Assembly (NCBI GenBank): GCA_030529525.1
Contig: JAUMWS010000005.1
Span: 1 to 40,645, forward strand
Reading direction: 5' to 3'
Source of the DNA: Porphyromonas sp.
GTDB taxonomy: Bacteria; Bacteroidota; Bacteroidia; Bacteroidales; Porphyromonadaceae
DNA length: 40,645 bases
Below are positions 25,052-30,687 of the stretch, piece after piece. How positions within the stretch are numbered: position 1 is the stretch's first letter; each line of letters opens with the position of its first letter. The notes beneath the pieces are model-generated. The model saw only the letters and a program-made list of their open reading frames with translations, searched no databases and was not told the DNA's origin. Position numbers and translations under genes: made by a program.

Positions 25052-26056
25052 TTAATAAGTTACCGGTTTTAGCTTCAATCCGGTTGTTTCCACTAGCCCA
25101 CACATAAGGTTCATAATGTGTACTGCTGTTCCTGCACCTCCTTTCAAGAGGTTGTCTTGTACGCTTATGACCATTAACTTTCTGCCATGCTTCATTAGAT
25201 GAATAACCGAGTAATTTGTATTCACCACCTGTCTGATATCAGGTATAGAATCTTGAAGATAGACAAAAGAGTGATCATCAAAATGTTCCCGATATAATCT
25301 TTTTATCTCATCTAAAGAGACATCCGTATCAAAATACGTACAAGAGTAGGTACCTCTAACGAAGTTGCCACGTATCGGAAGGAAGTTAACGGATTGGGAA
25401 AAACTACTTTGGCAGAATCTCAGAGCATACTCAATCTCTTTAGTCTGACGATGTTCAAATGGATGATAGAGAGTAATCCTATCGCTCATGGAGTCGTAGT
25501 GGATAGCCGAACTTTGAGGTCTTGCCGCATTTTCCGTATGTCCTATTATGGATGAAATATGTAGTTCGCTATTGATAAGAAGATGTTTGGCCAAAGGGAT
25601 CAGCCCAATACTAACAGAATTTGCAAAACTACCCGGAACAGAAACTGAAGAGGCATTGCAGATCGCTCGTCTATTCATTTCAGGCAGACCATACACAAAC
25701 TCTCTTCCGGCACAAAGCTCCGCAGTACGAGCAATGACCGACTCATTCAGAGGACGAATCTCGTACGAAAAATCTATAATCTTTAAGTTTTCCGGTAAAG
25801 AGTGAGAAGAATAAAAGGCTTTTGCCTTGGCACTATTGAGACAGACAAAAAGGACTTCCAATTCGGAAAAGTCGTCATTATCCGTAAAAACAATTTCTCT
25901 AAAATTGAACAGCCCCGGATGAATATGAGACACCATCTCTCCAAGATGCTCCGGTGCATAAACCTTCTCCAGCACAACATCATCATGGTTAATAAGCAAC
26001 GCTATAAGCTCACCTACCATGAATCCTTCACTTCCTACTATTCCTACTTTTATCAT
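25052..26056 (-). CDS. ArgC-like N-acetyl-gamma-glutamyl-phosphate reductase with Cys-to-Ser active site
   Basis: This is a 334-residue protein of the ArgC / aspartate-semialdehyde dehydrogenase superfamily. It has the N-terminal nucleotide-binding glycine loop (VGIVGSEGFMVGEL, residues 4-17) and FVYGLPEMNR (120-129), typical of ArgC. The catalytic-cysteine motif usually reads PGCY/F; here it is Pro141-Gly142-Ser143-Phe (codon AGT). Other ArgC positions are also altered, for example HRQTKEI where HRHxPEI is usual. No other arginine-pathway gene is nearby. It is the last gene of the minus-strand cluster, 16 bases after the porin-like gene, with a terminator behind it. A reductase role is therefore doubtful and the true function is open. 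Confidence 0.75.
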   Translation of the reverse strand: MIKVGIVGSEGFMVGELIALLINHDDVVLEKVYAPEHLGEMVSHIHPGLFNFREIVFTDNDDFSELEVLFVCLNSAKAKAFYSSHSLPENLKIIDFSYEIRPLNESVIARTAELCAGREFVYGLPEMNRRAICNASSVSVPGSFANSVSIGLIPLAKHLLINSELHISSIIGHTENAARPQSSAIHYDSMSDRITLYHPFEHRQTKEIEYALRFCQSSFSQSVNFLPIRGNFVRGTYSCTYFDTDVSLDEIKRLYREHFDDHSFVYLQDSIPDIRQVVNTNYSVIHLMKHGRKLMVISVQDNLLKGGAGTAVHIMNLMCGLVETTGLKLKPVTY

Positions 26057-26072
26057 GCTATTTATTTTGAGA

Positions 26073-27059
26073 CTAAAATACGAAATCTACACCAAGATTT
26101 ATGGAGGCATTGGTTTGCCCTGCCAAGTTGAGATATCTGAAATATGGGAACAGACCAAAGTATTTGTTGAATCGGTAAGAGAATCCCCCATATATCACAT
26201 CTTTTGTGATCGACTTTCCTTCATTATCGCGGTTCATATCCACATGATCCCATCTGGCAAAAACAGATAGTTGCGGTTTAAGATAGAGCGTAGAGTAAAT
26301 AGCCCCTCCCTGAAAAGCACTATCATCCTTTCCGAAATGGCTATGTAATAATACGTTGTACTCTGCTGCTATTCTGAATGGCTTGGTATTGTATGCAACC
26401 ATTCCTCCTAAAAGCATTCTTGGAACATATCCATCCTCCTTATCTCCCAACTTTAAATCAGGCGTTATGGCAGCAAGAGCATTGAGTCTTAGCCCTATAG
26501 GAGTATTCAGATGAGCTCCTGCGTAGAACTGAGTACGGCTATCTACTGCCATATTGCAATATCCCTCTCCATTAGTAATGGAGGCATATAGCTTAAAGAT
26601 GTCCGTAGGCTTGTACTCCATAAACACTCCAAGGTCTGCGCTTGCGGCAAAACCGTGCAAGTAAAGAAAAGCAGGTCCTACATAACGATGCCCCCACTCT
26701 ATTTCGTGCTCAAGCCCAATACCTGTCTCTACAAGTCCGGCCTCCATAGAGAACTTTTCCTCTTTATAGTTCAGAGAGGCATATTTGGGAACCATTTGGT
26801 ATCTTCCATTGATGGGAAGAATATCCAGCACAACCATTCCACCCCAAGGTGTATTGGTTTTTATGGAATAACCAAGGTAGCTACGGTTAAGTAGAAAGCG
26901 GGAAGAAGTATTTGAGTTAAGTCCTTGAGAATATTCACCAAAGACACGCAGTATGGGCTTTCCCTCCCATTTAATCGGTTGTTCTTGTGCATGAATCTTT
27001 GCTATTCCCGATAGCAATAGAAAACATGTGGCAACGATACAGAATGTTTTTTTTTTCAT
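26073..27059 (-). CDS. Porin-like outer-membrane beta-barrel protein
   Basis: This 328-residue protein has a signal peptide of about 24 residues (ends KIHA, then QEQ). The remainder consists of alternating amphipathic strands rich in Tyr, Phe and Gly and ends in LGVDFVF, the terminal Phe that typifies outer-membrane barrels. It resembles the phosphate-selective porin O/P (OprO/OprP-like) or related Bacteroidetes porins, but no ion selectivity can be read from it. It lies 56 bases after the ABC-F gene and 16 bases before the ArgC-like gene, all on the minus strand. Confidence 0.75.
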   Translation of the reverse strand: MKKKTFCIVATCFLLLSGIAKIHAQEQPIKWEGKPILRVFGEYSQGLNSNTSSRFLLNRSYLGYSIKTNTPWGGMVVLDILPINGRYQMVPKYASLNYKEEKFSMEAGLVETGIGLEHEIEWGHRYVGPAFLYLHGFAASADLGVFMEYKPTDIFKLYASITNGEGYCNMAVDSRTQFYAGAHLNTPIGLRLNALAAITPDLKLGDKEDGYVPRMLLGGMVAYNTKPFRIAAEYNVLLHSHFGKDDSAFQGGAIYSTLYLKPQLSVFARWDHVDMNRDNEGKSITKDVIYGGFSYRFNKYFGLFPYFRYLNLAGQTNASINLGVDFVF

Positions 27060-27115: not shown

Positions 27116-28726
<1,611 letters not shown>

Positions 28727-28755: not shown

Positions 28756-30687
28756 TTAAAACTTTTCTATTTCTCTTATCCACATTTCTCCCACGGCATC
28801 ACTCGGCATACGCCATCCACCTCTCGGTGATAGAGTGATAGCTCCAACCTTTGGAGCATCGGGGCTACAGTTGCGTTTGAACTGATTGCTAAAGAATCTT
28901 GTTATAAATGTCGTCATAGTACGCTTGAGCATATCCTTGGAGTACTTATCTCCAAAGGCTTTGCCTGCCATAAAAAGTATCTTAGTCGGGGAAAATGCAT
29001 TGTGTATCGTGTGATAAAGGAAGAAGTCATGCAGCTCATAAGGCCCGATGATAGCTTCCGTACTCTGCCTGTTTGTACCATCTTTATCCTTTTCAGGAAG
29101 AAGTTCAGGGCTTACGGGTGTTTTTAAGACATCTCTTAAAGCCACTTCAACAACCTCTCCATAACCGCCATTATTAGCAATGTGTTCTACCATAAGACGC
29201 ACTACGGTCTTGGGGATAGAAGCATTCACATTATACATGGACATGTGATCACCGGCAAAAGTAGTCCAGCCCAAAGCCAACTCCGAAAGGTCTCCCGTAC
29301 CCAAAACTATTGCACCCTCCATATTGGCTATATCCATAAGTATCTGTGCACGTTCACGAGCCTGAGCGTTTTCAAACGTAACATCATAGCTCTTTCCATC
29401 GTGTCCTATGGCGGCAAGATGATTTCTAACAGATTCGGTTATCTCTACTTCTCTGGTGGAGATACCAAGTCCGGTCATCATCGTTTTGGCATTATTGTAC
29501 GTTCTTTCCGAAGTTCCAAATCCCGGCATGGTTACTCCTATGATCCCTTTTCTGTCCCAACCCATAAAGTCGAAAGCATGTACGGCAACCATTAGAGTAA
29601 GAGTACTATCGAGACCGCCACTAATACCTATCACCGCTTTCTTTGTTCCGATATGGATAAGACGCTGGAAAAGAGCAGACATCTGTATATCCCACATCTC
29701 TTGGCAACGCTCTTTCCAGTTTTTGGAAGATGGCATAAAAGGATACTTTTCCACGGGGCGGGTCATATCGTACTCCTTAACCTCATTGAGGTAAAATGGT
29801 ATCTCCGTCATTTCTTCCGTACACACCACAGAGGCTGCACTCTTGAAAGAGGTATTTATCAACCGCTCGGTGCGTATGTACTCTACGTCTATATCATTTA
29901 TCAGAAGGCGTTCGCCATACTCGAAACGCTCCATTTCCGAGAGAATCTCTCCGTTCTCTGCAATAAACGCCTTTCCGGTATAAACCAAGTCTGTAGAGCT
30001 CTCTCCATATCCGCAAGATGCGTATACATATCCACATATCGCTTGTGCCGAGTTTCCACTTATCAGTGCTCTCAGATAGGCATGCTTACCGGCATTTTCA
30101 TTACTTGCAGAAAGATTGAAGATGATATGTGCTCCGTAGAGAGAAAGACGTGTTCCGGGAGGTATCGCCGTCCACATATCTTCACAGATTTCAACACCAA
30201 TTCCTATCTGCTTATACTTGAAAAGAAGGTTGTGTCCGATGGGAACAACAAAATCTTTAATACGGATATGAGAAAGAGAAAGCTCATTTGCCGAAGAGAA
30301 CCAGCGTCTCTCCTGAAACTCCCGATAGTTTGGCAAGAATGTTTTCGGTATCGCTCCCAAAATCTTACCATTCTGGAAAGCAATGGCTGCATTGTACAAG
30401 CGTTGTTCTACGCGGATAGGCATACCGACAAAGACAAGAATATCCGTCTCCTTGGTACGCTCAACCAAAGTACACAGTGCCTCTTCTGCCTGCCGTTGTA
30501 GGAACGGCTGTATGAATAAATCCGAACAAGTATAGCCCGTGATGCACAACTCTGGGAAAGTAATTATCTCCACACCTTTCTCACAAGCCTTAAAGATGAG
30601 CTTCTCTATACGCTCTATATTATAGTTGCAATCTGCAACCTTTACGAATGGCACACCTGCGGCCACTTTTACATATCCATGTTTCAT
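28756..30687 (-). CDS. nadE: NAD(+) synthase (glutamine-hydrolysing)
   Basis: NadE amidates deamido-NAD using ammonia that its own glutaminase domain releases from glutamine, with ATP. The 643-residue two-domain form has an N-terminal nitrilase-type glutaminase with Glu46 (TFPELCITGY), Lys115 (PKTFLPNYREFQE) and Cys168 (VEICEDMW) as the catalytic triad. The C-terminal synthetase has its P-loop SGGLDST at 356-362. The length agrees with the glutamine-dependent class (about 640-680). It appears to head the minus-strand cluster nadE, ABC-F, porin, ArgC-like. A weak TACCTTTA box lies about 75 bases upstream. Confidence 0.95.
   Translation of the reverse strand: MKHGYVKVAAGVPFVKVADCNYNIERIEKLIFKACEKGVEIITFPELCITGYTCSDLFIQPFLQRQAEEALCTLVERTKETDILVFVGMPIRVEQRLYNAAIAFQNGKILGAIPKTFLPNYREFQERRWFSSANELSLSHIRIKDFVVPIGHNLLFKYKQIGIGVEICEDMWTAIPPGTRLSLYGAHIIFNLSASNENAGKHAYLRALISGNSAQAICGYVYASCGYGESSTDLVYTGKAFIAENGEILSEMERFEYGERLLINDIDVEYIRTERLINTSFKSAASVVCTEEMTEIPFYLNEVKEYDMTRPVEKYPFMPSSKNWKERCQEMWDIQMSALFQRLIHIGTKKAVIGISGGLDSTLTLMVAVHAFDFMGWDRKGIIGVTMPGFGTSERTYNNAKTMMTGLGISTREVEITESVRNHLAAIGHDGKSYDVTFENAQARERAQILMDIANMEGAIVLGTGDLSELALGWTTFAGDHMSMYNVNASIPKTVVRLMVEHIANNGGYGEVVEVALRDVLKTPVSPELLPEKDKDGTNRQSTEAIIGPYELHDFFLYHTIHNAFSPTKILFMAGKAFGDKYSKDMLKRTMTTFITRFFSNQFKRNCSPDAPKVGAITLSPRGGWRMPSDAVGEMWIREIEKF

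Follow-up and report, generated by a model that had tools for sequence, protein, structure and literature searches.

A putative ArgC-derived pseudoenzyme without the catalytic cysteine, encoded near an ABC-F gene in Porphyromonas

The window, a 40,645-nucleotide stretch of DNA from Porphyromonas sp. (contig JAUMWS010000005.1), encodes an ArgC homologue in which serine occupies the position of the catalytic cysteine, as the original prediction had claimed. Judged from the sequence, acyl-phosphate reductase activity is very probably absent. The explanation that we favor, with moderate confidence, is an ArgC-derived pseudoenzyme that is kept for a non-catalytic, ligand-binding role and is made with an ABC-F protein. 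The features discussed are listed in Table 1.

Table 1. Features of the window considered in this study
Feature	Position	Strand	Basis
Putative ArgC-derived pseudoenzyme, 334 aa	25052..26056	minus	Profile matches, alignment, AF2 model
Codon 143, AGT (Ser), catalytic Cys site	25628..25630	minus	Coordinates counted from ORF end 26056
328-aa protein, signal-like N terminus, no family match	26073..27059	minus	Family scan
YbiT-like ABC-F ATPase, conserved upstream neighbor	27116..28726	minus	Profile scan
NadE, glutamine-dependent NAD+ synthase	28756..30687	minus	Over PRK02628 cut-off

The open reading frame is uninterrupted, as originally noted, and stop codons break the reading of the plus strand over the same interval. 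The TIGR01850 (ArgC) model matches along the whole protein (2.1e-59), but the score of 201.5 bits is below the equivalog cut-off of 233.6 bits; nine further members of the genus score 199.2 to 224.4 bits, all likewise below it, in a scan that covered 10 genus proteins, i.e., all but L087 (G004). Pfam Semialdhyde_dh and Semialdhyde_dhC_1 are both over their cut-offs, and ASADH models match weakly (19.3 and 15.3 bits). The motif VPGSFAN stands where ArgC has NPGCFAT, with Ser143 at the position of the thioester cysteine. The homologue is present as a single copy in the window's own genome, of which the assembly (137 contigs) is 89% complete.

Structure prediction of the pocket was proposed originally as a check. 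The AF2 model (45-row alignment) has a pLDDT of 89.6 and a pTM of 0.90, with residues 176-190, which form the substrate loop, below a pLDDT of 50. An ArgC fold is predicted by the model, for which the 12 best structure matches are all ArgC or LysY (Z 37.4 to 40.4), the best being T. maritima ArgC (1vkn_A, Z 40.4, rmsd 2.5 over 323 residues); the match to Denitrovibrio ArgC (DaArgC) has a Z of 39.4.

Eleven of the 12 genomes of the genus hold exactly one copy of the gene. If all close relatives carried cysteine, the replacement would have been suspect, but the closest, from P. canoris, is 89% identical and has the same serine. Residue 143 is Ser in six, Ala in three and Cys in two of the 11 genus members, so that nine lack the cysteine, which is present in 164 of all 177 aligned homologues. 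Outside the genus it is found in 162 of 166 rows; L017 has Ser instead, L171 Ala, L150 Glu and L169 Val, and, because only these four lack it, its replacement in the genus is far from chance. The only Cys-less proteins among the 80 loci kept from the contig search are those of P. canoris, Porphyromonadaceae FC4 and Bacteroidales SIG121, and all 77 records of the plasmid search have <60% identity. No ArgC match was found in the 26 genomes of the sister genus at E 1e-10. Two loci labelled Porphyromonas (L025 and L047) encode ordinary, Cys-containing ArgCs; the tree groups both with Paludibacter, and the labels are therefore doubtful.

The changes extend well beyond the cysteine. A reference set of 154 ArgCs was defined as the 177 rows minus the 11 genus members, the four other Cys-less proteins and eight very divergent ones. 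Position 140, the Asn of NPGC, is Asn in all 154 and Val in all 11 genus members. Position 175, the first Gly of the substrate-channel motif GAG, is Gly in the reference ArgCs but Glu (nine) or Gln (two) in the genus, where position 177 is Ala, Leu or Phe instead of Gly; the window protein has E-N-A at the GAG position and H-R-Q at that of HxH. In addition, none of the 11 keeps W189 or R190, and H75 is Ser or Thr throughout; H204 is Gln in six and His in five, Y197 is retained by six, and the Ser that almost always follows strand 2 (S36) is absent from 10. In Denitrovibrio ArgC, the catalytic site is described as Cys149 plus the HRH motif and GAG as lining the substrate channel, and activity on the native substrate, N-acetyl-glutamyl phosphate, is reported to be almost 1,000-fold lower in variants carrying G182V (PMC10170137). 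Residue 175 corresponds to G182 of DaArgC through the alignment of Bacteroidales ArgCs, a direct pairwise alignment being one residue off there. Tyr211 of M. tuberculosis ArgC, of which Y197 may be the counterpart by position, is predicted to hold the acyl intermediate together with His217 (PMC8220418). Because N140 and the GAG motif are changed in all 11 genus members, including the two with Cys, they mark the loss of ArgC function better than residue 143 does, and even the Cys-bearing members are unlikely to act as ArgC.

Much of the remaining framework is retained. Unchanged in every one of the 11 are G5, G8, G11, D95, R101, Y122, H202, E207, R229, R234, N279, T280, N281, D301, N302, K305, G306, G309 and N316, and with them the glycines of GxxGxxG and the DNLxKG motif at the C terminus. 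The C-terminal cofactor segment is the best-conserved region (mean identity, 86%), and identity in the substrate loop is 53% in the genus versus 84% among seven true ArgCs. Seventeen positions hold genus-specific residues fixed in at least 10 of the 11 members, and E/Q175, A178 and R179 are substrate-channel residues specific to the genus. Dinucleotide binding is nevertheless not secure, as all 11 have E10 within the phosphate-binding loop and 10 have lost S36.

The rest of the arginine pathway is missing as well. Among the 38 genomes of the family, argB was not found at E 0.001, argG was never over its cut-off (weak partial matches in 6) and neither was argH, of which partial matches in all 38 probably represent other lyases of the argH superfamily; every one of these searches was positive in 14 of 14 control genomes. 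Of 89 candidate genomes in the order sample, 80 with an ArgC homologue were used, nine of the most distant being left out, and in 75 of the 80 the argB score exceeds the cut-off. The exceptions are G058 (no argB match; a single ArgC copy with Val at the Cys site), genome G175 (a weak argB match; a single copy with Ala), G048 (61% complete; argB not over cut-off, Cys kept) and G135 and G312 (partial argB matches, Cys kept). Loss of the cysteine in a single-copy gene thus goes with loss of the pathway in three lineages, including the genus of the window. The arginine pathway variants considered from a survey of gut bacteria include none with ArgC alone (PMC9026213), argC is absent from the main text of a comparative analysis of Porphyromonas genomes (PMC4700951), and the open-licence papers listed for argC in P. 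gingivalis yielded nothing about this gene.

Other Cys-less copies are placed differently. The copy of G058 (L190:2337-3272) directly follows an argR-like gene, and that of genome G175 (L192, about 1811-2866) lies beside a queA-like gene. Copies with Glu at the Cys site occur in G270 (L191:9835-10803) and G335 (L198), both of which have argB; an arginine operon of G270 includes an ordinary argC besides. The SIG121 copy (L017:1681-2652; Ser), from a genome with argB, lies between gltX-like and lysS-like genes, and the G270 copy shortly follows a gltX-like gene, these names coming from reading of the proteins. Since the copies of G270, G335, genome G175 and G058 have also lost glycines of GxxGxxG, cofactor binding is not a property of Cys-less copies in general. 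A single pseudo-ArgC family across the Bacteroidales was considered and rejected: the tree sets L017, L150, L169 and L171 beside the genus, but independent origins are as likely, because long branches may attract one another (as the program warns) and the motifs differ.

Within the genus, the gene tree has three groups: the window protein with P. canoris, the two Cys genomes, and the seven other Ser or Ala genomes. The ABC-F tree joins the window pair with the Cys genomes (G002 and G008) with support of 100/97; support for the same join in the gene tree is 55/30, i.e., not resolved, and the window/P. canoris lineage forms a long branch there (1.06 changes per column). On these trees, the cysteine would have disappeared on two separate occasions, or else disappeared, returned and disappeared again, and it is expendable either way. 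The changes N140V and of GAG, being common to all 11, most simply precede that of the cysteine. Ser143 is encoded by AGT in the window and P. canoris and by TCN in four other genomes, Ala by GCN and Cys by TGT. The check suggested originally, whether homologues with PGSF form one clade, came out negative, as Ser is encoded by two codon families and Cys and Ala fall in the same clade. Horizontal spread within the genus was also rejected, as the same main groups appear in the gene tree and in that of ABC-F.

Purifying selection is strong, as judged from one unsaturated sequence pair, L090/L091, in which dN/dS is 0.016 at a dS of 0.50 for the gene, compared to 0.030 for ABC-F and 0.027 for NadE. 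This is the only sound estimate, since dS is saturated between the window and P. canoris (dN/dS, 0.025) and the value for L083/L084 is undefined.

The minus-strand gene order in the window is nadE, the YbiT-like ABC-F gene, the gene for the 328-aa protein and the ArgC homologue, and arginine genes are absent from the cluster, as the original prediction had it. Its nadE and ABC-F neighbors were also recognized correctly, but its description of the 328-aa protein as porin-like is unproven, as no Pfam or NCBIfam model matches that protein. Only in the window species and P. canoris does the 328-aa protein separate ABC-F from the ArgC homologue; it evolves fast, with 71% identity versus 98% for the ABC-F and NadE neighbors. 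The best model for the ABC-F protein is PRK15064, with 612 bits, under the cut-off of 762. Nine of the 11 genomes have the ABC-F gene directly upstream of the ArgC homologue and in the same orientation (the junction gap is −4 bases in two and 7 to 44 bases in seven), and in the other two it is one gene further away. The nadE gene is upstream of ABC-F in seven of the 11, downstream in G009 and non-adjacent in two; one contig is too short.

All 38 family genomes, among them the 26 of the sister genus without an ArgC match, have an ABC-F gene. G010, the sole genus member without the homologue, has different genes downstream of ABC-F (contig C52, L228), and neither an ArgC homologue (best tblastn E, 0.043) nor an adjacent nadE was found at the ABC-F loci of G010 and seven sister-genus genomes. 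ABC-F therefore does not need the ArgC homologue, and the pair looks like an innovation of the genus that was lost in G010. YbiT has been put forward as a possible translation factor, and the E. coli protein inhibits protein synthesis when deficient in ATPase activity (PMC6723617); the titles and abstracts of the 6 papers listed, out of 33 matches, include no ABC-F operon of this kind.

Comparison with known systems places the protein with ArgC by descent and with Usg by condition. It resembles ArgC (PDB 1vkn, 8afu and 2i3g) in fold over its whole length (Z 38 to 40), in protein length, in the GxxGxxG glycines and DNLxKG and, in the window protein, in the first His of HxH. It differs in the replaced residues (Cys in 9 of 11, the NPGC Asn and GAG in 11 of 11), in a cluster without arg genes, in the loss of the pathway and in a score below the equivalog cut-off. 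LysY of Thermus (PDB 5ein and 5eio) shares the ArgC-type fold (Z 38), but its catalytic Cys is present, as a C148A mutant named in a PDB entry title shows, and its substrates are LysW-bound. E. coli Usg (b2319) has VPDS where ASADH of V. cholerae has NPNC, the same N-to-V and C-to-S changes as in the window protein, and P. aeruginosa USG-1 (PDB 2hjs) has SPCA there. Usg belongs to the same superfamily and is likewise kept as a distinct gene, in E. coli overlapping the tRNA-modification gene truA by one base. In contrast to the window protein, however, which descends from ArgC, Usg is of aspartate-semialdehyde dehydrogenase descent and has another genomic partner; the best families for the window protein are ArgC, and its model matches 2hjs with a Z of 26.2 versus 40.4 for the best ArgC. 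The window protein combines the superfamily fold, a replaced catalytic Cys and a gene under selection. Because the superfamily, the two positions and the change are the same, we consider the gene an ArgC-derived counterpart of the Cys-less Usg. The NCBIfam equivalog for E. coli usg (L227:3637-4650) names an aspartate-semialdehyde dehydrogenase despite VPDS in place of NPNC. The open-licence papers listed for ArgC or Usg pseudoenzymes concern aldehyde dehydrogenases and describe no such protein.

We propose the following mechanism. (i) As the sequences show, the acyl-phosphate reductase center was dismantled in the ancestor of the genus, in a lineage that lost the rest of the pathway, by the change of the NPGC Asn to Val and of the first GAG Gly to Glu or Gln and by drift of the His-x-His site, after which the Cys was free to become Ser or Ala. 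(ii) A folded oligomer would have been kept, probably with a nucleotide or dinucleotide pocket, as the GxxGxxG and DNLxKG motifs suggest. (iii) The product may be a ligand-binding regulatory or scaffold protein made from one transcript with the YbiT-like ABC-F and, often, NAD synthetase. The ABC-F protein is the leading candidate partner, although a functional tie between the two, suggested by their gene order, is possible rather than probable.

Alternatively, the protein may have remained an NAD(P)-dependent oxidoreductase that acts on another substrate by thioester-free chemistry (e.g., direct hydride transfer to an aldehyde), for which Cys, Ser and Ala at residue 143 would be equivalent. 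The GxxGxxG glycines, H202 and DNLxKG, intact in all 11, fit this explanation, and E/Q175, A178 and R179 are more suggestive of a new pocket than of a closed one. However, selection on an enzyme pocket should leave it more conserved than the parts around it, and the substrate loop (identity, 53% versus 84%) is modelled with a pLDDT of <50, while H204 is Gln in six members and Y197 is kept in only six. We regard this as unlikely, though as the likeliest of the alternatives.

Far less probable is that the gene is decaying, a leftover of the lost arginine pathway kept by chance. The loss of the pathway, the long window/P. canoris branch (1.06) and the disappearance of the gene from G010 would accord with decay, but the frames are intact in 11 of 11, constraint in the L090/L091 pair is no weaker than on the neighbors (dN/dS, 0.016 versus 0.030 for ABC-F and 0.027 for NadE), 17 genus-specific positions are fixed in at least 10 of 11 and the gene has a conserved place behind ABC-F; the original claim of a repurposed rather than decaying gene agrees with these findings.

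A working ArgC that uses Ser or another residue as the nucleophile is highly improbable. Serine can in principle act as a weak acyl acceptor, and the fold is that of a full-length ArgC (Z 40.4 to the T. maritima enzyme). Alanine, however, found in 3 of 11, cannot act as a nucleophile, N140 and residue G175 are changed in all 11, argB, which would make the substrate, is found in 0 of 38 family genomes, and 10 of 10 scanned genus proteins are below the TIGR01850 cut-off. Finally, sequencing or assembly error, to which the incomplete window assembly might lend some credence, was rejected as practically negligible, because the AGT codon recurs in the separate assembly of P. canoris and other non-Cys codons occur in seven further genus genomes.

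The pseudoenzyme explanation invites a broader and distinctly speculative reading, which we consider improbable: besides its catalytic role, ArgC of the Bacteroidales may have a non-catalytic one that persists once arginine synthesis is lost and is linked here to translation through ABC-F. Where the pathway was lost but the gene stayed (the genus of the window, G058 and genome G175), or where the gene was duplicated (G270/G335, perhaps SIG121), the Cys would have been replaced and the protein kept as a binding or regulatory module. The pseudoenzyme would then couple a nucleotide or amino-acid signal to translation.

Cys-less proteins of the semialdehyde dehydrogenase superfamily are already known as a kind from Usg; the ArgC-derived variant is new, and two lineages of one superfamily have thus altered the same Asn and Cys. 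The genus offers a clean natural case: it has lost the pathway, the reductase chemistry has been dismantled and the catalytic residue varies, yet selection on the gene is equal to that on its neighbors. Automatic annotation likely reads the gene as a leftover argC, and metabolic models that count argC toward arginine synthesis would be misled in this genus.
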